30,090 nucleotides of DNA, taken from a virus. Location of the stretch: positions 1-30,090 of IMG/VR virus record IMGVR_UViG_3300017593_000392; one strand, given 5' to 3'. Positions 3,976-14,276 of the stretch are shown here, in pieces. Positions within the stretch are counted from its first letter, which is position 1, and every line of letters begins with the position of its first letter. The notes under the pieces were generated by a model that was not told where the DNA came from, made no database searches, and was given only the letters and a program-made list of their open reading frames with translations. The position numbers and the translations under genes are program-made.

Positions 3976-4982
3976 AGCGGCATCTCGTTCCACTCGCGGC
4001 CGTCGAGTTGCCGACCCGCGATCTGCTTGCCGACGCGATGCAATTGCACGCAGGATGGCATGCTCGTATCCACCAACACGCGCGGCAGATCCTTGCCCTC
4101 GGGGACATAGCCACTGCCATCAACGAACGCAACGAAGCGCTCGGATTTTCCGTCCCAGCAGAGCGGGTCTCTCGGCGCCCATTCACCCCATTGCTTGAAG
4201 AAAAAAGGCACGCCGATGGCCTCGCACTGATCGCGCAGGCTGCGTGCCCACTCGGGATGCATAGGACGCGCACCAGGGCCGCTCTCCCCGCCCACGATCA
4301 CCCAGTCGATCTTCTCCAGCACGTTCGTTCCATCGCGCATGTCGCTGGTGTTGGCGAACATGCCCTCGAACGACACGGCCCCCAGCAGCGGCTCGATGCT
4401 CAGATAGCGAACGCGCGCCGGCACCTGCAGCAGCAATGCAATTCGCTCGTCCGCGCGCTTCTGGTCCTCGACACTCACACCGAGCCACACGTTGTCGAGA
4501 GGCAGGCCCGACCACACTGCGATGGGGCAACCATCGCGCTCGAGCTGGAGCCGCACGATCTGCTGACCGATCAGTGCCTCGCGCACCGGGTTCGCGAAGT
4601 AGGCGCGCATCCTCGCTGCCCGCTTCGTCAGCACCTGGAACGTGTGCTGCTTCGCGAGTGCCATGACGGCGAAGACCCGATCAATCCAATCGTCCGGCAC
4701 GGACTCGTGAAAGAGATCCCCGTGGGCACAGACGAAGATCATGCGAGCTCGCTTCCAGCCCAGCGGCTGGCGCAGCCACTCTTCATTGAAGCGGACATCG
4801 CCCGTCCACACCGGCCCCGCCTCGCTGTTGCGTGTGAGCCCTGCACGGCTGGGATGGTGCTGGAGACGAGTGCCCGCGAGCTTCATGGCATAGCAGCGCT
4901 TGCAGCCCGGGCTGGTGACACTGCAACCCGTGATCGGGTTCCAGGTGGCATCAGTCCATTCGATATTGCTGTGGTCGGCCAT
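3972..4982 (-). CDS. Gp37/Gp68 family protein (DUF5131)
   Basis: The 336-residue protein belongs to the phage Gp37/Gp68 family. The N-terminus reads IEWTDATWNPITGC, followed by a three-cysteine cluster C20, C27 and C30 (GCKRCYA). Conserved later segments include VCAHGDLFHE (about 95), FQVLTKRAARM, NVWLGVSVEDQ, YLSIEPLLG and VIVGGESGPGARPMHPEWARSLRDQC. The cluster resembles, but does not exactly match, the CxxxCxxC motif of radical-SAM enzymes, and family members are suspected iron-sulfur proteins of unknown reaction. Some relatives are encoded beside a three-Cys-motif partner protein (TcmP), but no such partner is visible here. The start at 4982 lies 3 bases after the preceding stop. Confidence 0.85.
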   Translation of the reverse strand: MADHSNIEWTDATWNPITGCSVTSPGCKRCYAMKLAGTRLQHHPSRAGLTRNSEAGPVWTGDVRFNEEWLRQPLGWKRARMIFVCAHGDLFHESVPDDWIDRVFAVMALAKQHTFQVLTKRAARMRAYFANPVREALIGQQIVRLQLERDGCPIAVWSGLPLDNVWLGVSVEDQKRADERIALLLQVPARVRYLSIEPLLGAVSFEGMFANTSDMRDGTNVLEKIDWVIVGGESGPGARPMHPEWARSLRDQCEAIGVPFFFKQWGEWAPRDPLCWDGKSERFVAFVDGSGYVPEGKDLPRVLVDTSMPSCVQLHRVGKQIAGRQLDGREWNEMPL

Positions 4983-4985
4983 GCA

Positions 4986-5339
4986 TCACCCCAGCACCAG
5001 CGGCGCGAGCCACCAGTTCCACAGCCCGAACACGCTGAACACGAAGTAGCAGCGTTCCCGGATCAAGAGCCAGCGATGCCCCTGGTGTCGATTGAAAGGG
5101 ATGCCCACCACGTTGCTTGCCAGGAACGCGGCGAAGCCCCACGCGGGATGCATGGAAGGGATCGCGAGCACCAGAGCACCTGCGACACCGAACGTCGTGG
5201 CGGAAACCTCTGCGGCCTTCATCGACCACGCCGGCCACTGCCGATTGCGCGCTTCGAACGCGCCAGAGAGCCAGAATGCCGTGCCCACCACCACAAAGGT
5301 GATGGCGAACCAAACGATGGTCGCTACCGGATCAGCCAT
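4986..5339 (-). CDS. small multi-pass membrane protein
   Basis: The 117-residue product from ATG 5339 has four likely membrane segments: about 5-25 (ATIVWFAITFVVVGTAFWLS), 44-61 (SATTFGVAGALVLAI), 66-82 (AWGFAAFLASNVVGIPF) and 95-114 (CYFVFSVFGLWNWWLAPLVL). The longer frame to 5498 would add an arginine-rich leader that is out of keeping with the operon. Its start overlaps the upstream stop by 8 bases. It acts in the inner membrane, but it lies among early genes and far from the lysis block, so a holin is not the first guess. Function unknown. Confidence 0.65.
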   Translation of the reverse strand: MADPVATIVWFAITFVVVGTAFWLSGAFEARNRQWPAWSMKAAEVSATTFGVAGALVLAIPSMHPAWGFAAFLASNVVGIPFNRHQGHRWLLIRERCYFVFSVFGLWNWWLAPLVLG

Positions 5340-9224: not shown

Positions 9225-9501
9225 GAGCTGCCTCCTCGCTGCGCTCGCGTTGGGCACGAGCCACCATCTGGGACAACTGCGCGGCGACCAGGTCTCCGAG
9301 CCGGAAAGAGCCGACGAACGTGTCAGGCGCCATCAGCAAGAACTCGCCGGTGCCGACATCGAGCGTCAGATCGAGATTCAGGGTCTGACCGAACGCCTTG
9401 CCGCGCACCTTGCAGATGTGCATCCGACCACGCATCGACACCGGAATGTCCTCGTTCGGAATCAGGTGGATCGGCAGCTTGCCGTGGAGGGTGCTGATCA
9501 C
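9208..9501 (-). CDS. small early protein of unknown function
   Basis: The 97-residue product starts with GTG at 9501, overlapping the stop of the ATPase gene (GTGA); the frame extends to 9660 only as a shadow. The sequence has a beta-rich N-terminal part (LPIHLIPNEDIPVSMRGRM, then LNLDLTLDVGTGEFLLMAPD) and a C-terminal helix with many charged residues. It sits next to the transposase ATPase and overlaps the following winged-helix gene by 17 bases. No family is recognised. Confidence 0.6.
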   Translation of the reverse strand: MISTLHGKLPIHLIPNEDIPVSMRGRMHICKVRGKAFGQTLNLDLTLDVGTGEFLLMAPDTFVGSFRLGDLVAAQLSQMVARAQRERSEEAAHAQAH

Positions 9502-10235
9502 CGATGCGCTCCCTTCACGACAGCGCCGACCATCTCCACCGACACGCTCGTCAGGCCGCGGCGCTTGCACTCTTCCCTGATGCGCTCGATCTCGCTCGTG
9601 ACGCGCCGTGCAACGCCGTTCGCCCGGGCTGCCAGCGCGGCGTGGGTGCCAGCCTCCCACGTCAGGGCGGATGCATAGTGACGCGTCAGCGCAGCGGCGT
9701 CGGACTCGTCGCAGGGCTGCGCGCTGGCCCAGACCAGGACACGATCGTGGAAGCGCTCATGGTGGCTAAGCAGCTTCTGCTGCAGCTGTTGCTCGCCGAT
9801 CAGCAGGATCGGGGTCGCGCACGAGTCATGGATCGCTCGGATGAAGTCGACCGACTTCGTCTCGGCGATGTGGTCCATCTCGTCGATCACCAGCGGCCGG
9901 TTGATCAGGCTCAGGCGCTCGCATGCGGCCTCGTACATGTCGTTGATCGACATGCTGGCTTTCGGGCGCACGTCCAGCTCCGTCAGCAGGCGCCGCGCGA
10001 GGCTCTTCGTGGTTTCGAAGGAGTGCAGCTCAAGATACACCGCATTGCCGCCGGCGGGATGCGCCAGGTACATCGCAGCCTGGCTCTTGCCCAGACCAGG
10101 CCGCCCCGACAAGACCGCGATGCGGGGCATCTGCGCGGGCGCTGCCTGGATCTGCTTCATTGCGCTCATGGCCAGACCCACGTTCGTGAGTCGAGCGACA
10201 CCGGTGCCGGATTGTTCGGGGGCCTTGTTTGTCAT
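9498..10235 (-). CDS. MuB/TniB-like AAA+ ATPase for transposition
   Basis: The 245-residue protein has a Walker A motif GRPGLGKS (residues 44-51), Walker B LVIDEMD (115-121) and a following sensor segment ATPILLIGEQQL. In Mu-like and Tn7-like elements this ATPase forms filaments on target DNA, selects the target site, activates the transposase and gives target immunity. It is encoded just after the transposase, as expected. The start ATG at 10235 has an AAGGAAG ribosome-binding site. The N-terminal 25 residues contain LTNVGLAMSAMKQI. Length fits TniB-like members and lacks the extra domain of Mu B. Confidence 0.9.
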   Translation of the reverse strand: MTNKAPEQSGTGVARLTNVGLAMSAMKQIQAAPAQMPRIAVLSGRPGLGKSQAAMYLAHPAGGNAVYLELHSFETTKSLARRLLTELDVRPKASMSINDMYEAACERLSLINRPLVIDEMDHIAETKSVDFIRAIHDSCATPILLIGEQQLQQKLLSHHERFHDRVLVWASAQPCDESDAAALTRHYASALTWEAGTHAALAARANGVARRVTSEIERIREECKRRGLTSVSVEMVGAVVKGAHR

Positions 10236-10321: not shown

Positions 10322-12517
10322 TTAGCCCGCCACTTCGGCGAGCGGGTCTTCGCCCTGCTGCATCGAATGCCAGCCTTCCCACTCGGCGCTGCCTTCGTAG
10401 GTGTGCAGCCACTCGGCATCACGCGCGCCGAGCTGCTCGCCGGCCGTGGCACGGGCAGACAGCCGGCACCAGGCGCTGTAGCGCTGCTTCGCGCTGTCCA
10501 TGCGGATGACGGGCGCCGTCGATTCGTCGAGGGCCGCCCGGGCTTCGGCCCGCGCGTCCTGCTGCGCGCCAAGGCTCGAGGCCGCGAGCAGCGATTCAAT
10601 GGCCGGGGTGCTGGTGTTGGGGCGTACCGGCAGGCGTGATACGTTGGCGCTGGTGTCGATCGCACCATCGGCCCGCTCCGCCTGGATGGCGTCGACAGCC
10701 CGCTGCGTGAGCCCCTTGCTCGCGGCCTTGCGAAACTGCGCGATGACGGGAGCCGCGGTGGCTTTCTCGATCGCGTGCGCCTTGGCGGCAACCTCGGCGC
10801 GGTTGATGCCGAGCTTGGTGTGATCGATCGCACGGCAGATGTAGGTGCCGTCCAGGTGGAAGACATGCATTGCGCCCAGGTCGGCTTCGTCGATGCGGCA
10901 ATAGACCTGTTGGCCCATGACGTCGACCGACGCAAGTTCGGGCGCGCGATACCACGCCGCTCCGGCGCGGTCGTTGAGCGGCATCTGAATCCCTCGCTTG
11001 CCGACGATTCGCACACCATTGCCGGCAACAGGCATAAGGAACAAGTCCAGCGCGCGCTCGTCAACGCGCAGGACGCGCGTCGCGAGGCGCTGCGTCATCT
11101 CGGCGGGGCTGCACCCGAGTTCACGGTGCGGCCGAGCGTGGTACTCATCCAGCCAAGCATTGATGACGCTCTGCAGCTGCGCAGGTGTCATGCGCAGTCG
11201 AACCCCTTCGCTACCGAAGCGCTGCGCGAAACTCTTGGCCGATTCGATGGCCTTGCGGGTCGCCACGTCGTGACCCACGAAGCCTTCAAGCATCGGGAAA
11301 AGGTCGTGCAGCAGGGTGCCCAGAAAACGCTCGATGAACGGCTTCTGATCGGGACTGAAGGGGGTGCACAGCGGGTGCTCGATCAAGAGCGCCTTGAGGC
11401 CAAAGTCGAAGTCAGCGGCCGTGTAGTCCTTGCCGTTGTCGGTCTTGATGCGCTCAGGCTTGCCCCAGTCGAGCATGGCTTGGCGCACAAGCGCCTTGAC
11501 CGCGTTGCTGCTGCTTGTGCGCGCTACCAGAACCTTCGCCCGACGGGTGTGAACGTCGATGGCCGCAATCAATGCGTGCCGCCGGATCTCGCCGGTATCG
11601 CCGTCCTGCAGGTTGAAGGCGATCTCCACGCGTTGCTGTGCATCCGCAATGGTCGAGTCCAGCTGCCACTCTTCGTTCGGCGCGCTGATGTGCTCGCTGC
11701 GGCTGCCGAAGGCCGGCATGTACTTGTTCCGCCAAGCATCCGGGTTCTTGAGCTTGAGGAGTGCGACCTTGTGGTCTGCCTTGTACTCGCGCAGCCACCG
11801 CTTGAGCGTGGTGATGGATGGAGCACGGTCCTCGCCCAGGTGGTTGCTGATGACCCGGCGCACCTGTGCTGCTGTCGGATCGTGCATCTCGATCAACGCA
11901 GCGACGAACGCGCCATGCAGCTCTTCATCCTCTGCCAGCTTCGACTGGCCCTTGTCCTTGCGCGGCTTGCGCTCGAGCAGCGCCTCGACGCCGTTGACGC
12001 GCCACTGGCGATACCACTTGTCGAGGGTCTTGGCGGGGATCGCAGGGTAGGCCGCGAGCGTGCCCGGCAATGCTTCAATCTGGCCGGCGCCCCACAGTGC
12101 GCAAAACTCGCCGATGGCGGGCCACACAGCCCCGCCGCGGTGGGCGTGATAGCGCTCGAACCGTTGGAAGAGGTCCAGGCGCGGATTGGTCGCGGGGTCG
12201 AAGGCCCCCACCGACTCGAGCTTGACGCCCAGGCGAGCCATTGCATTTGCGTGGGCCTGCACCTGGGAAGCGCGAGCCATCTCTTCGCCGGCAGCGATCG
12301 CACGGGTGATCGGCTTGACGCCACCCGCGACACTCGCCGCGAGGGCCTGTTGCGTCGGGGCCGGGAGATCCGTCAGGAGGTACTCGCAGCCGCTGCGCCC
12401 ACGGCCGACGCGTGGCCGGGAGGTCCATTTCTCGGACCGCGCGCGTCGCAGGACTTGGCGATCGCTGGCGGGCATTCCGGGCAGGCCGGCAAGGTCAGGC
12501 GCCGCGAACCACATCAT
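10322..12517 (-). CDS. DDE transposase of the transposable phage (Mu A / TnsB type)
   Basis: The 731-residue protein catalyses strand transfer and replicative transposition of the phage. The N-terminus (about 1-60, WFAAPDLAGLPGMPASDRQV ... EYLLTDLPAPTQQAL) is the Mu-type DNA-binding helix-turn-helix domain. Winged-helix segments follow at about 155-250. The RNase H-fold core shows D287 (EEWQLDSTIAD), D360 (RIKTDNGKDY) and E396 (KPFIERFLG), i.e. a complete DDE triad. The C-terminal part, roughly 480-731, would contact the ATPase. It overlaps the upstream gene as ATGA at 12517. From established knowledge, BcepMu-type transposases group with Tn552/IS1604/TnsB rather than with Mu A. Confidence 0.95.
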   Translation of the reverse strand: MMWFAAPDLAGLPGMPASDRQVLRRARSEKWTSRPRVGRGRSGCEYLLTDLPAPTQQALAASVAGGVKPITRAIAAGEEMARASQVQAHANAMARLGVKLESVGAFDPATNPRLDLFQRFERYHAHRGGAVWPAIGEFCALWGAGQIEALPGTLAAYPAIPAKTLDKWYRQWRVNGVEALLERKPRKDKGQSKLAEDEELHGAFVAALIEMHDPTAAQVRRVISNHLGEDRAPSITTLKRWLREYKADHKVALLKLKNPDAWRNKYMPAFGSRSEHISAPNEEWQLDSTIADAQQRVEIAFNLQDGDTGEIRRHALIAAIDVHTRRAKVLVARTSSSNAVKALVRQAMLDWGKPERIKTDNGKDYTAADFDFGLKALLIEHPLCTPFSPDQKPFIERFLGTLLHDLFPMLEGFVGHDVATRKAIESAKSFAQRFGSEGVRLRMTPAQLQSVINAWLDEYHARPHRELGCSPAEMTQRLATRVLRVDERALDLFLMPVAGNGVRIVGKRGIQMPLNDRAGAAWYRAPELASVDVMGQQVYCRIDEADLGAMHVFHLDGTYICRAIDHTKLGINRAEVAAKAHAIEKATAAPVIAQFRKAASKGLTQRAVDAIQAERADGAIDTSANVSRLPVRPNTSTPAIESLLAASSLGAQQDARAEARAALDESTAPVIRMDSAKQRYSAWCRLSARATAGEQLGARDAEWLHTYEGSAEWEGWHSMQQGEDPLAEVAG

Positions 12518-12840
12518 GCGGCCCCTCCGGAAAGGTCACGCACTCGACGCGCGGCATGAAACGCTGCCAGGCGAAGCGATGCGGCACTAGGGTGGGAACG
12601 AAGCCCCAAGATCTGGCGGACATAGCCGACTCGGCCTGCTCGACGCGCGCTTAGGAGGTCATTGCTCAGCGCTTCTGCGGCTACGCCATACGGGACGCCA
12701 ATGTGCGCTGCGAAAGCGTCGATCGATCCATATCGACGTCTCACGTCATCCCGTGCTTGCATCGCTGACCAAGAGGCGTATCGAACCGGCTGCACCACGA
12801 AAAGAGCACCGTCGAGTCGGAGCTTCAGGCGAGGCTTCAC
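12514..12840 (-). CDS. small helix-turn-helix-like protein upstream of the transposase
   Basis: The 108-residue protein carries YASWSAMQARDDVRRRYGS followed by IDAFAAHIGVPYGVAAEALS at about 22-60. The second part fits a helix-turn-helix, with a conserved basic RRAGRVGYVRQILGLRSHPS segment after it. I recognise this block from the corresponding position in BcepMu-like prophages. It is coupled by ATGA overlap to both neighbours. A role in controlling the transposase or binding the phage ends is inferred from position only. Confidence 0.65.
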   Translation of the reverse strand: MKPRLKLRLDGALFVVQPVRYASWSAMQARDDVRRRYGSIDAFAAHIGVPYGVAAEALSNDLLSARRAGRVGYVRQILGLRSHPSAASLRLAAFHAARRVRDLSGGAA

Positions 12841-13115
12841 TTCGCACCTCCCACGAGCTTGAGGTTGGCCGCAGGCTTGGCCGGCGGCGGTGCATACAGC
12901 CGGGGCGCGACGACGCGACCCTGCTTGAGTCCGAGCGCCACTGCAATCCGGTGGGCCTGACCACGCTTTGCTTTGATGCGGCCCGACAGGACCCCACGAG
13001 CGACGTCATAGGACAGTCCATGCGCGCGCGCCCACTCCGCGAGGGAGATGCCTGCTTCGTCCATTTCTGCACGAACTTCGGCGGGCGTCTTTTGAGGCTT
13101 TGATTTCGTCGGCAC
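12837..13115 (-). CDS. BcepMu gp16-family DNA-binding protein (Ner-like)
   Basis: The 92-residue protein is the first gene of the early operon. It contains a helix-turn-helix at about 25-60 (LAEWARAHGLSYDVARGVLS then KAKRGQAHRIAVALGL), typical of the BcepMu gp16 family of small regulators found in transposable phages. By position it corresponds to Ner of Mu, which shuts down transcription from the central promoters during lytic growth. It starts with GTG at 13115, about 23 bases after the predicted transcription start. The ribosome-binding site is weak, which may limit its level. The disordered tail is proline- and alanine-rich. Confidence 0.75.
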   Translation of the reverse strand: MPTKSKPQKTPAEVRAEMDEAGISLAEWARAHGLSYDVARGVLSGRIKAKRGQAHRIAVALGLKQGRVVAPRLYAPPPAKPAANLKLVGGAK

Positions 13116-13144
13116 AATCTCGAATCAATGTGTGATTGAACCGA

Positions 13145-13173
13145 ATTATTTCGCCACTTGGCGAATTCGTCAA
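13145..13173 (-). promoter_or_regulatory. predicted early promoter
   Basis: Read leftward, TTGACG (13173-13168) is followed after exactly 17 bases by AATAAT (13150-13145). Each hexamer has one mismatch to the sigma-70 consensus. The predicted transcription start is near 13138, 23 bases before the first early gene. The whole promoter is covered by the two dyads at 13150-13181, so repressor binding would exclude RNA polymerase. No comparably good promoter for the rightward repressor gene was found here. Confidence 0.75.
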
Positions 13174-13182
13174 GTGGCGAAA
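13149..13182. promoter_or_regulatory. double operator, two tandem 16-bp dyads
   Basis: TTCGCCACTTGGCGAA (13150-13165) and TTCGTCAAGTGGCGAA (13166-13181) lie back to back, with consensus TTCGYC-N4-GGCGAA. As a whole, 13149-13160 and 13171-13182 are also exact 12-bp inverted complements. The arrangement suggests two dimers bound side by side on one face region, 16 bp apart. The likely ligand is the Xre-type repressor encoded at 13201, the gp16-like protein, or both in competition. Confidence 0.8.
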
Positions 13183-13200
13183 GCCGTGCCTGAGGAAGAA

Positions 13201-13560
13201 ATGCCTAAGAAGCCAGATTTGTCCGAAGAGGACGTGGAGCTGCGTCGAACGTTCGGGGAGCGACTGAAGGAGGCTCGCGAAGCAATGAAGAAGTCGCCCG
13301 CCGAGGTCGCGGCTATAGGCGGCATCAGCCTGGCGCACCAGTACCGAATTGAGGCCGGTGAACGGACTGCGGATGTCCTGTATCTGCAGAAGTTGATCGC
13401 CCGTTTCGGGAGCATGTTTGCTTCGCTAGTCCTCGATGTAGATCTCGGTCAAGCGAGCAAACCCCCGTCAAGAATTGGGCTAACGCAGTCGAATACAGGA
13501 GCAGGCGCTGTTTTGATTGGGCACGCCGGAGGAAGCGTGGCCGTCAAGACTAGGAGGTAG
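13201..13560 (+). CDS. Xre-family phage repressor
   Basis: The 119-residue product is taken from ATG 13201 behind GAGGAAG; an upstream in-frame ATG at 13132 would put the operator inside the gene. Residues 15-75 form a Xre-type helix-turn-helix (LRRTFGERLKEAREAMKKSP, AEVAAIGGISLAHQYRIEAG, ERTADVLYLQKLIARFG). It lies divergent from the early operon with the double operator between them, which is the expected place for the lysogeny repressor. There is no peptidase domain for SOS cleavage. The last 25 residues hold a glycine-rich motif (QSNTGAGAVLIGHAGGSV) that recurs in the next gene. Confidence 0.75.
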   Translation: MPKKPDLSEEDVELRRTFGERLKEAREAMKKSPAEVAAIGGISLAHQYRIEAGERTADVLYLQKLIARFGSMFASLVLDVDLGQASKPPSRIGLTQSNTGAGAVLIGHAGGSVAVKTRR

Positions 13561-13563
13561 GGT

Positions 13564-13935
13564 TTGCACTGGCAGGGTTTGATTGCAAAGATTGGACGCG
13601 TCTTTTCTATGCGGCAATCGAACAGCGGCGCTGGTGCGATTCAGGTTGGCGAAGTGCATGGCGATCTGACGATCGTCCAGGTGGCCGCGCAGTCCCCGGG
13701 CGAGGGACACGCTCAGCGTTTGCGCATTGAGCAAGCGCGCGTGCTTCGACTCCTCGCCCGAGTCTCGAACCGAAGATCCATCCTTGAGTTCATGCGGCGG
13801 GAATTTGGCACGAGCATGGTCAAGGACCTGACATTTCCACAGTTGTACAGAGTGAAGAAGTATGCGGAGGCGGTGGTTCGCCGTGAGGGTGACCTCGTCC
13901 GTGACACAGAGTCCAATACCAGGGAGGATGAGTGA
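13564..13935 (+). CDS. small protein with repressor-like glycine-rich motif, function unknown
   Basis: The 123-residue product probably starts with TTG at 13564, which has a perfect AGGAGG (13552-13557) 6 bases before it; the ATG at 13609 lacks this. The N-terminal part contains QSNSGAGAIQVGEVHGDLTI (residues 18-37), close to the motif in the C-terminal tail of the preceding repressor. The rest is a charged helical domain (HAQRLRIEQARVLRLLARVS, ILEFMRREFGTSMVKDL, PQLYRVKKYAEAVVRREGD). No known family. The genes are 3 bases apart, so they are surely co-translated and the shared motif may join the two proteins. Confidence 0.7.
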   Translation: MHWQGLIAKIGRVFSMRQSNSGAGAIQVGEVHGDLTIVQVAAQSPGEGHAQRLRIEQARVLRLLARVSNRRSILEFMRREFGTSMVKDLTFPQLYRVKKYAEAVVRREGDLVRDTESNTREDE

Positions 13936-14276
13936 TGAGGGCACTTGGCAAGGCGACACGGGGGGTGTTGCTCGCTATCGTTGGAATCGCGAGTCTGGCG
14001 GCATGTGACAACACCCCACCCACTCAAACAAAATCCAAGCTCATTGAGCTCGAAACCCGCCTGAAAGAGGCCGACAAGACTGGGGACGCCTCTCTCGCCC
14101 TGAAAGGGATCACCGCGGCTAACGACTTAGTTGCGGGATTGAACGACCGGCCCGATTCGCCCCGGGCCTGCGTACTAGCAGCCGTCTACCTCAGCGATGG
14201 ATATGTTCGCGTCATGCAAGGCGATCGCTGGAGCCAGCGAGACCGCTACGATGAGAACATGCGAATGTGCAAGTGA
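13935..14276 (+). CDS. lipoprotein expressed with the repressor
   Basis: The 113-residue protein has a signal peptide with basic start (MRALGKATRG), hydrophobic core and lipobox LAAC with the modified cysteine at residue 24. The residues after it are Asp and Asn, which in enterobacteria act as a Lol-avoidance signal and keep the lipoprotein in the inner membrane. The mature part is short and helical (LIELETRLKEADKTGDASLA) with two further cysteines near the end. The ATG at 13935 overlaps the preceding stop (TGATG), with AGGGAGG 7 bases before. Co-expression with the repressor suggests a lysogenic conversion or superinfection-exclusion role. Confidence 0.75.
   Translation: MRALGKATRGVLLAIVGIASLAACDNTPPTQTKSKLIELETRLKEADKTGDASLALKGITAANDLVAGLNDRPDSPRACVLAAVYLSDGYVRVMQGDRWSQRDRYDENMRMCK

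Follow-up and report, generated by a model that had tools for sequence, protein, structure and literature searches.

A motif shared by a transposable-phage repressor and the product of the next gene points to an undescribed control of prophage waking

The repressor of a Mu-like phage, represented by a virus record stretch of 30,090 nucleotides (the window), ends in a short, glycine-rich motif that recurs near the N terminus of the protein encoded by the next gene, termed its partner. The pairing of these motifs within phages is well supported by sequence comparisons, and it points to an undescribed control of prophage waking. Our searches of an open-access library found no prior description of such a repressor/partner motif pair.

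The motif pair and its genomic setting

The immunity region of the window has the Mu-like layout, in which the repressor is divergent from the ner, A, and B genes (Table 1). The repressor reading frame is open from a GTG at position 13132, and the longer ORF that begins there (13132 to 13560) matches Pfam HTH_3 (E = 7e-6). The most likely start is the ATG at 13201, which yields 119 amino acids and is preceded by GAGGAAG and, just upstream, by a palindrome. This palindrome is an inverted repeat with 17-nt arms of 94% complementarity; its core is kept 5' of the homologous repressor in locus L044, and it is the probable operator, readable as two half-sites. As predicted from its sequence, a 119-residue protein made up of an HTH domain and a tail has no space for a RecA-type cleavage domain. 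A Pfam search of the window placed the Mu-type DNA-binding domain (HTH_Tnp_Mu_1) in the transposase only and not in the repressor.

Table 1. Features of the repressor region in the window
Feature	Position	Strand	Basis or remark
MuB-type ATPase	9498-10235	-	
MuA-type transposase	10322-12517	-	phrog_310, E = 3e-100; Pfam HTH_Tnp_Mu_1, rve, Mu-transpos_C
Ner-like HTH protein, divergent from repressor	12837-13115	-	phrog_925, E = 4e-23
Probable operator, 34-bp near-perfect palindrome (TTTCGCCACTTGGCGAA/TTCGTCAAGTGGCGAAA)	13149-13182	.	Just 5' of repressor start
Repressor, HTH_3 plus short tail, no protease domain, 119 aa	13201-13560	+	
Repressor tail motif QSNTGAGAVLIGHAGGSVAVKTRR	13486-13557	+	Like partner motif, 0/5000 shuffles; tail recurs at 21 other loci
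AGGAGG ribosome-binding site of partner	13552-13557	+	Direct reading; overlaps repressor end
Partner, 123 aa, TTG start	13564-13935	+	ORF; homologues in L032, L044, L045, L051, L057, and others
Partner N-terminal amphipathic stretch HWQGLIAKIGRVFS, preceding motif	13567-13608	+	Alignment A3; relatives with W/L-rich stretch ending LxPK
Partner motif QSNSGAGAIQVGEVHGDLTIVQ, RHIM-type tetrad IQVG	13615-13680	+	
Partner C-terminal helical domain, 3 helices	13702-13926	+	AlphaFold pLDDT mostly about 90-95; phrog_5825, E = 0.0017
Small lipoprotein, lipobox LAAC	13932-14276	+	ORF overlapping partner stop

The initial annotation had noted a glycine-rich motif common to the repressor tail and the N terminus of the following protein, and this is borne out, the motif spanning about 20 residues: QSNTGAGAVLIGHAGGSV, encoded on the + strand at 13486 to 13539 in the repressor, and QSNSGAGAIQVGEVHGDL, encoded at 13615 to 13668 in the next ORF, are identical at 9 of 18 positions. 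The full-length Smith-Waterman score of repressor against partner is 60, a value reached by none of 5,000 shuffles (highest, 59; mean, 28.5), and the tail QSNTGAGAVLIGHAGGSVAVK and the partner QSNSGAGAIQVGEVHGDLTIV are similar beyond chance. The second copy contains the RHIM-type tetrad IQVG, as annotated; in the window repressor, the corresponding tetrad reads VLIG instead of VQIG. At the DNA level, 39 of 100 bases agree across the flanked stretch, mainly where the protein agrees, which rules out a recent tandem duplication as the origin of the motif.

The TTG start of the partner lies six bases past a perfect AGGAGG that overlaps the end of the repressor gene, so the two genes are probably translationally coupled. 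Both genes occupy the same reading frame in the window and in L032, L041, L043, and L044, with no more than a stop codon plus a few bases between them. Read-through of the repressor stop codon would yield a repressor-partner fusion; no natural fusion was seen. The lipoprotein gene, presumed to be the third gene of the repressor operon, is followed by the lysis genes. A small exported protein is regularly encoded 3' of the partner (in the window; in L032, at 4735 to 5244; and in L043, L048, L049, and L071). It is either a lipoprotein or of the INKCTGPDGKVxFQDAPC type and is perhaps a lysogenic-conversion or exclusion factor. Two further proteins encoded 3' of the module, a phrog_11791 protein (L005, 6607 to 7116) and the product of an L040 ORF (3088 to 3714), appear related by eye.

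Partners follow a common plan, comprising an amphipathic W/L-rich stretch (often ending in LLPK or LRPK), the motif, and a variable part. In the AlphaFold monomer of the window partner, residues 1 to 44, motif included, are disordered (pLDDT below 50) and are followed by helices at residues 47 to 66, 71 to 81, and 91 to 121. The variable part is most commonly soluble and helical (window, L032, L044, L045, L051, L057, L065 to L069, and L071), and elsewhere consists of transmembrane (TM) helices (L005, L040, L049, and L050, with TM calls for metagenomic partners made by eye from the sequence) or of a short, Cys-containing end (L041, L042, L046, and L086). Several partners are only 65 to 76 aa long and have no obvious sensor domain. 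Foldseek returned no convincing match of the partner domain in PDB or BFVD. Searches of the partner against Pfam, NCBIfam, and PADLOC for antirepressor or defense proteins gave no significant match; the phrog listed for it in Table 1 is of unknown function. Similarity between the partner domain and ORF6C is weak, with E values of 0.015 to 0.09 for the KS5-type partners described below and, in a profile comparison, a probability of 14%, and no assignment is claimed.

Recurrence of the pair and covariation of its members

Beyond the window, 21 repressor/partner pairs emerged from searches with tail patterns, partner patterns, or a motif profile, and 8 of these pairs had no part in building the profile. 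Nearly all loci for which both sides could be examined have a matching motif on the neighbor. Detection of the pattern loci needed only one member of the pair, and finding the other alongside it is thus an independent observation. The first DNA pattern, Q[ST]NxGxGx[IV]Q[IV]G, hit seven stretches in IMG/VR, of which five belong to this system (L004, a second contig of the window phage, and L005, L040, L041, and L042). All five carry the motif on both the repressor tail and the N terminus of the next gene product, the partner copy in L040 being diverged. L043 and L044 were recovered with a pattern of the tail type, and a partner-type pattern hit ten stretches, every one of them this system. Wherever the contigs of these ten extend far enough 5', the partner gene follows an HTH gene whose product has a motif tail; the exception is L050, in which a motif-bearing protein intervenes. 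Across the IMG/VR tail and partner patterns, 5/7, 4/4, and 10/10 stretches lay in the repressor/partner setting.

Two extra loci came from genomes: L032, from a Burkholderiales metagenome-assembled genome (MAG), and L057, found by partner homology. A relaxed pattern hit 22 stretches in genomes, of which only L032 is clearly this system, with most others chance-like or in noncoding frames; the pattern by itself is therefore not proof. Profile A4 (27 motif columns) was applied to 401 genomes from a single bacterial family. Outside the training genome, G094, its strong matches yielded eight new adjacent pairs (L065 to L071 and L086); it also recovered the known G094 pair, and its matches weaker than an E value of about 1e-3 were mostly unrelated long ORFs. 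A search of genome contigs with motif alignment A1 confirmed nothing, tblastn of the window partner and its relatives against phage records found no match, and diverse repressors proved too divergent when aligned for a pattern scan. Among the loci, the L043 partner is frameshifted relative to its homologues, that of L048 is very short and its start is ambiguous, and L045 and L049 are located at the ends of contigs.

Some loci depart from the common arrangement. L050 (6390 to 7990) holds a three-gene variant, comprising an HTH protein without a tail motif, a 258-aa protein containing a pair of GDGNTQIG-like repeats, and a Zn-ribbon and TM protein starting MNQRIDGDGNIQVGHFVGDLTI. The motif is doubled within one protein in the partners of L044 (6070 to 6615) and L065 (1456 to 1983) and in the repressor tail of L040 (1229 to 2029), resembling the pseudo-repeats of known amyloid signaling proteins. 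A 477-aa protein that does not look phage derived (L072; G711:C105) has TQTAGPAATQIGHVGGNVTIYQ shortly past a hydrophobic segment, and the motif may thus also exist in host proteins. In an Acidimicrobiia MAG (L031; contig CALACD010000178.1), a protein carries many GDGAVQVG/GDGxxVxGD repeats, with the same core in a different context.

The polarity proposed in the initial annotation, C-terminal in one protein and N-terminal in that of the adjacent gene, holds in the window and at the 21 other loci, and the two motifs covary in cognate pairs. Among the 22 pairs, cognate tail/partner similarity exceeds noncognate similarity (53.2 versus 40.0; z = 7.9, p < 2e-5), as it does among the 8 held-out pairs (47.9 versus 31.8; p = 6e-5), in permutation tests that, like the Mantel tests below, treat phages as exchangeable and model no phylogeny, mosaic phages having none. 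The cognate excess persists when three redundant tails are dropped (z = 7.0). In nearly all other pairs, motif similarity is far above that of shuffles, as it is in the window, and the genes next to the motif-less repressors of JBD25, Ps60, and Fc22 show no similarity to the tails of those repressors. Similarity among tails correlates with that among partner N termini (Mantel r = 0.50, p = 0.0002; 22 pairs) and not with that among the HTH bodies of the same repressors (r = 0.00, p = 0.50; 22 pairs), and the tail-partner partial correlation given the HTH body is unchanged. Because the tail and partner motifs are only about 110 to 135 bp apart, their joint exchange as one DNA segment could explain part of this covariation; linkage leaves the within-phage resemblance of the two motifs unexplained.

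An identical 17-aa stretch, GDNAIQIGSVTGKARIK, occurs in L051, L066, L067, and L068, on HTH bodies that reach just 5 to 11% of the self score in four of six comparisons. Among these four loci, 5 to 10 of the 17 codons differ and all of the differences are synonymous, indicating that the tail is under purifying selection. The same tail on divergent HTH bodies, with synonymous change only, argues that tails are selected and are exchanged together with the partner. In these comparisons, the tail is shown to go with its partner and not with its own DNA-binding domain, as a cassette would.

Comparison with amyloid motifs and known repressor controls

In a 32-row alignment of the motif, the Q and the following G of an [IV]Q[ILV]G core are invariant or nearly so. 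By its sequence, this [IV]Q[IV]G core with its near-invariant Q and G is of the RHIM/BASS3 type. RHIM and BASS3 motifs are known for beta-arch/cross-beta stacking, and in amyloid signaling pairs the receptor carries the motif N-terminally and the effector C-terminally. In bacterial BASS3 (RHIM-like) signaling, the motif is shared by neighboring NLR and Bell proteins (PMC8086366, PMC12261475), and the BASS3 peptide VDLRDAKGVQVGDGNVQINRF forms amyloid aggregates, as judged by FTIR and Congo red (PMC8086366). This peptide scores 10.1 bits against our motif profile, a value reached by 3 of 3,000 shuffles, and its post-tetrad spacing is two residues shorter than that of the phage motif. Archaeal and fungal sigma peptides did not score against the profile, no PDB chain matched it, and Pfam RHIM matched none of the scanned members at E values up to 10.

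The phage pair is like BASS3 in its short G-rich [IV]Q[IV]G motif, in the placement of that motif at one C terminus and the neighboring N terminus, and in the likeness of cognate pairs. It is unlike BASS3 in pairing a phage HTH repressor with small phage-encoded partners that have no significant Pfam domains, with no NLR or Bell domain or cell-death effector found, and its amyloid state is putative. With the RHIM tetrad type and the logic of homotypic pairing it also has common ground with RIPK1/RIPK3/TRIF/ZBP1 and the fungal PP motif, which differ in lacking a Pfam or PDB sequence match to it and in residing in other proteins of another domain of life. Since Pfam RHIM and PDB gave no match and NLR and Bell are absent, the pair is not filed as a BASS member; its mode of action is probably BASS-like. 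The amyloid-signaling reading of the initial annotation is partly supported: motif sharing, polarity, and tetrad are borne out, and the motif profile picks up the BASS3 peptide, whereas the NLR and Bell context and the Pfam RHIM match are missing. No search placed the motif in a beta-helix, which the annotation had named as an example of a fold that would refute its reading, or in another globular fold, and the motif is disordered in the AlphaFold model of the partner monomer. The AlphaFold model of the read-through fusion, whose motifs have pLDDT values near 30, is uninformative on assembly.

Other phages share this layout but differ in the sequence of the motif. The repressors of Pseudomonas phages B3 and Ps59 have tails with TGxGNRTAG, and the next gene product has an N-terminal VTGSNNxVAGRDFIEN and TM helices (from the record annotation in Ps59). 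Burkholderia phages KS5, AP3, and Carl1 have QNFxGAxxGQxVTGDV in the tail and MNQKFxGxxGQVAGGDV at the start of the next gene product, a membrane protein, and L090 has GQGNRVAGRDFNEN and GEQNRIAGRDFIEN, respectively. The B3/Ps59 and KS5/AP3/Carl1 pairs are weaker, with 0 to 24 of 1,000 shuffles reaching the pair score (L090 was unscored). As in the window, the tail motif matches the N terminus of the next protein in B3 (ORF18/ORF20) and KS5 (gp11/gp12), whose motifs, TGxxNxxAGRD and xFxGxxGQxxxGDV, differ from that of the window and whose proteins are annotated just as hypothetical or membrane proteins. These sequence pairs suggest that the arrangement extends beyond a single motif.

For the Mu c repressor, we know of no partner with a matching motif. 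The window repressor is like it in being a transposable-phage repressor with a short C-terminal tail, which in Mu is regulatory and holds a ClpX-recognition determinant (PMC10584840), and unlike it in belonging to HTH_3, whereas Mu acts via a protease. Small phage proteins inactivate repressors without cleaving them in Gifsy (PMC3121763) and without DNA damage in TF-smORF modules (PMC10432266). Those antirepressors are separately regulated, whereas the window partner is encoded directly 3' of its repressor and is probably cotranslated; we found no report of a motif that they have in common with their repressors.

Possible functions of the pairing

The best overall explanation, in which we have moderate confidence, is that a paired homotypic motif couples the repressor of a transposable phage to the protein encoded by the next, cotranslated gene. 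From the sequences, it is likely that the repressor tail and partner interact through the motif; the analogy with known pairs leaves the amyloid nature of the assembly evenly balanced. That the partner regulates the repressor, rather than the reverse or mere co-repression, is a tentative reading by the same analogy, held with slightly less than even confidence. Under this regulation by the partner, the two motifs would co-assemble by beta-arch/cross-beta stacking, as in RHIM/BASS3. Input would come through the partner and output through the repressor, because of the polarity of known pairs and the diversity of partner domains versus the constant HTH output. A state read through the variable C-terminal domain (helical, two-TM, or Cys-rich) would nucleate partner assembly, which would recruit repressor tails and take the repressor off its operator, and this sequestration would induce the prophage without RecA cleavage.

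Signaling could run in the reverse direction, with the repressor as sensor and the partner as effector, such that repressors clustered on superinfecting operators nucleate the partner and its amphipathic, TM, or Cys-rich part acts at the membrane in superinfection exclusion or abortive infection. We consider this unlikely: expression of the partner alongside the repressor in the lysogen, as deduced from gene order, the TM helices of some partners (L005, L040, L049, L050, and B3/Ps59), the amphipathic partner N terminus, and the export of the third gene product at many loci are all consistent with it, but soluble helical domains are the commonest among partners, short partners have no effector domain, PADLOC is silent on partners, and the polarity is opposite to that of receptor/effector pairs. 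It is similarly improbable that the motif is an ordinary short oligomerization element, a small beta structure building a higher-order complex for constitutive co-repression, with no switch and no amyloid. The predicted disorder of the motif (AlphaFold, at low confidence) and its RHIM/BASS3-like core argue against such an element, and the motif repeats in the L044 and L065 partners and the L040 tail are more in keeping with open-ended stacking than with a closed oligomer; in its favor, the repressor lacks the usual C-terminal dimerization domain, the 34-bp double operator suggests several dimers, and translational coupling probably supplies the partner in a fixed ratio.

A degron-like tail that the partner masks or exposes has a precedent in the Mu repressor (PMC10584840), and most tails end in basic residues, but this leaves the presence of the same motif in the partner and its covariation unexplained, making it very improbable. 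That the pair is a functionless short tandem copy or a low-complexity coincidence, as short, glycine-rich motifs near each other might be, is scarcely credible in the face of the 21 additional pairs, the shuffle tests, the synonymous-only change in the tail, and DNA that is not duplicated. It is also contradicted by the held-out pairs and by JBD25, Ps60, and Fc22, in which repressor and next gene both lack the motif.

How transposable phages with short, noncleavable repressors sense conditions for induction is poorly known, and a matched motif pair on repressor and neighbor is a concrete candidate input to the repressor. It is possible, though doubtful, that the pair forms a prion-like lysogeny switch in many transposable and some P2-like phages, in which self-templating assembly would replace RecA cleavage, partner domains would be interchangeable sensors, and motif types would serve as private channels between co-resident prophages. 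Phage B3 in strain PAO1 is a possible tractable model. If the assembly is of the amyloid type, amyloid signaling, known from immunity and cell death, would also operate in a viral gene switch.
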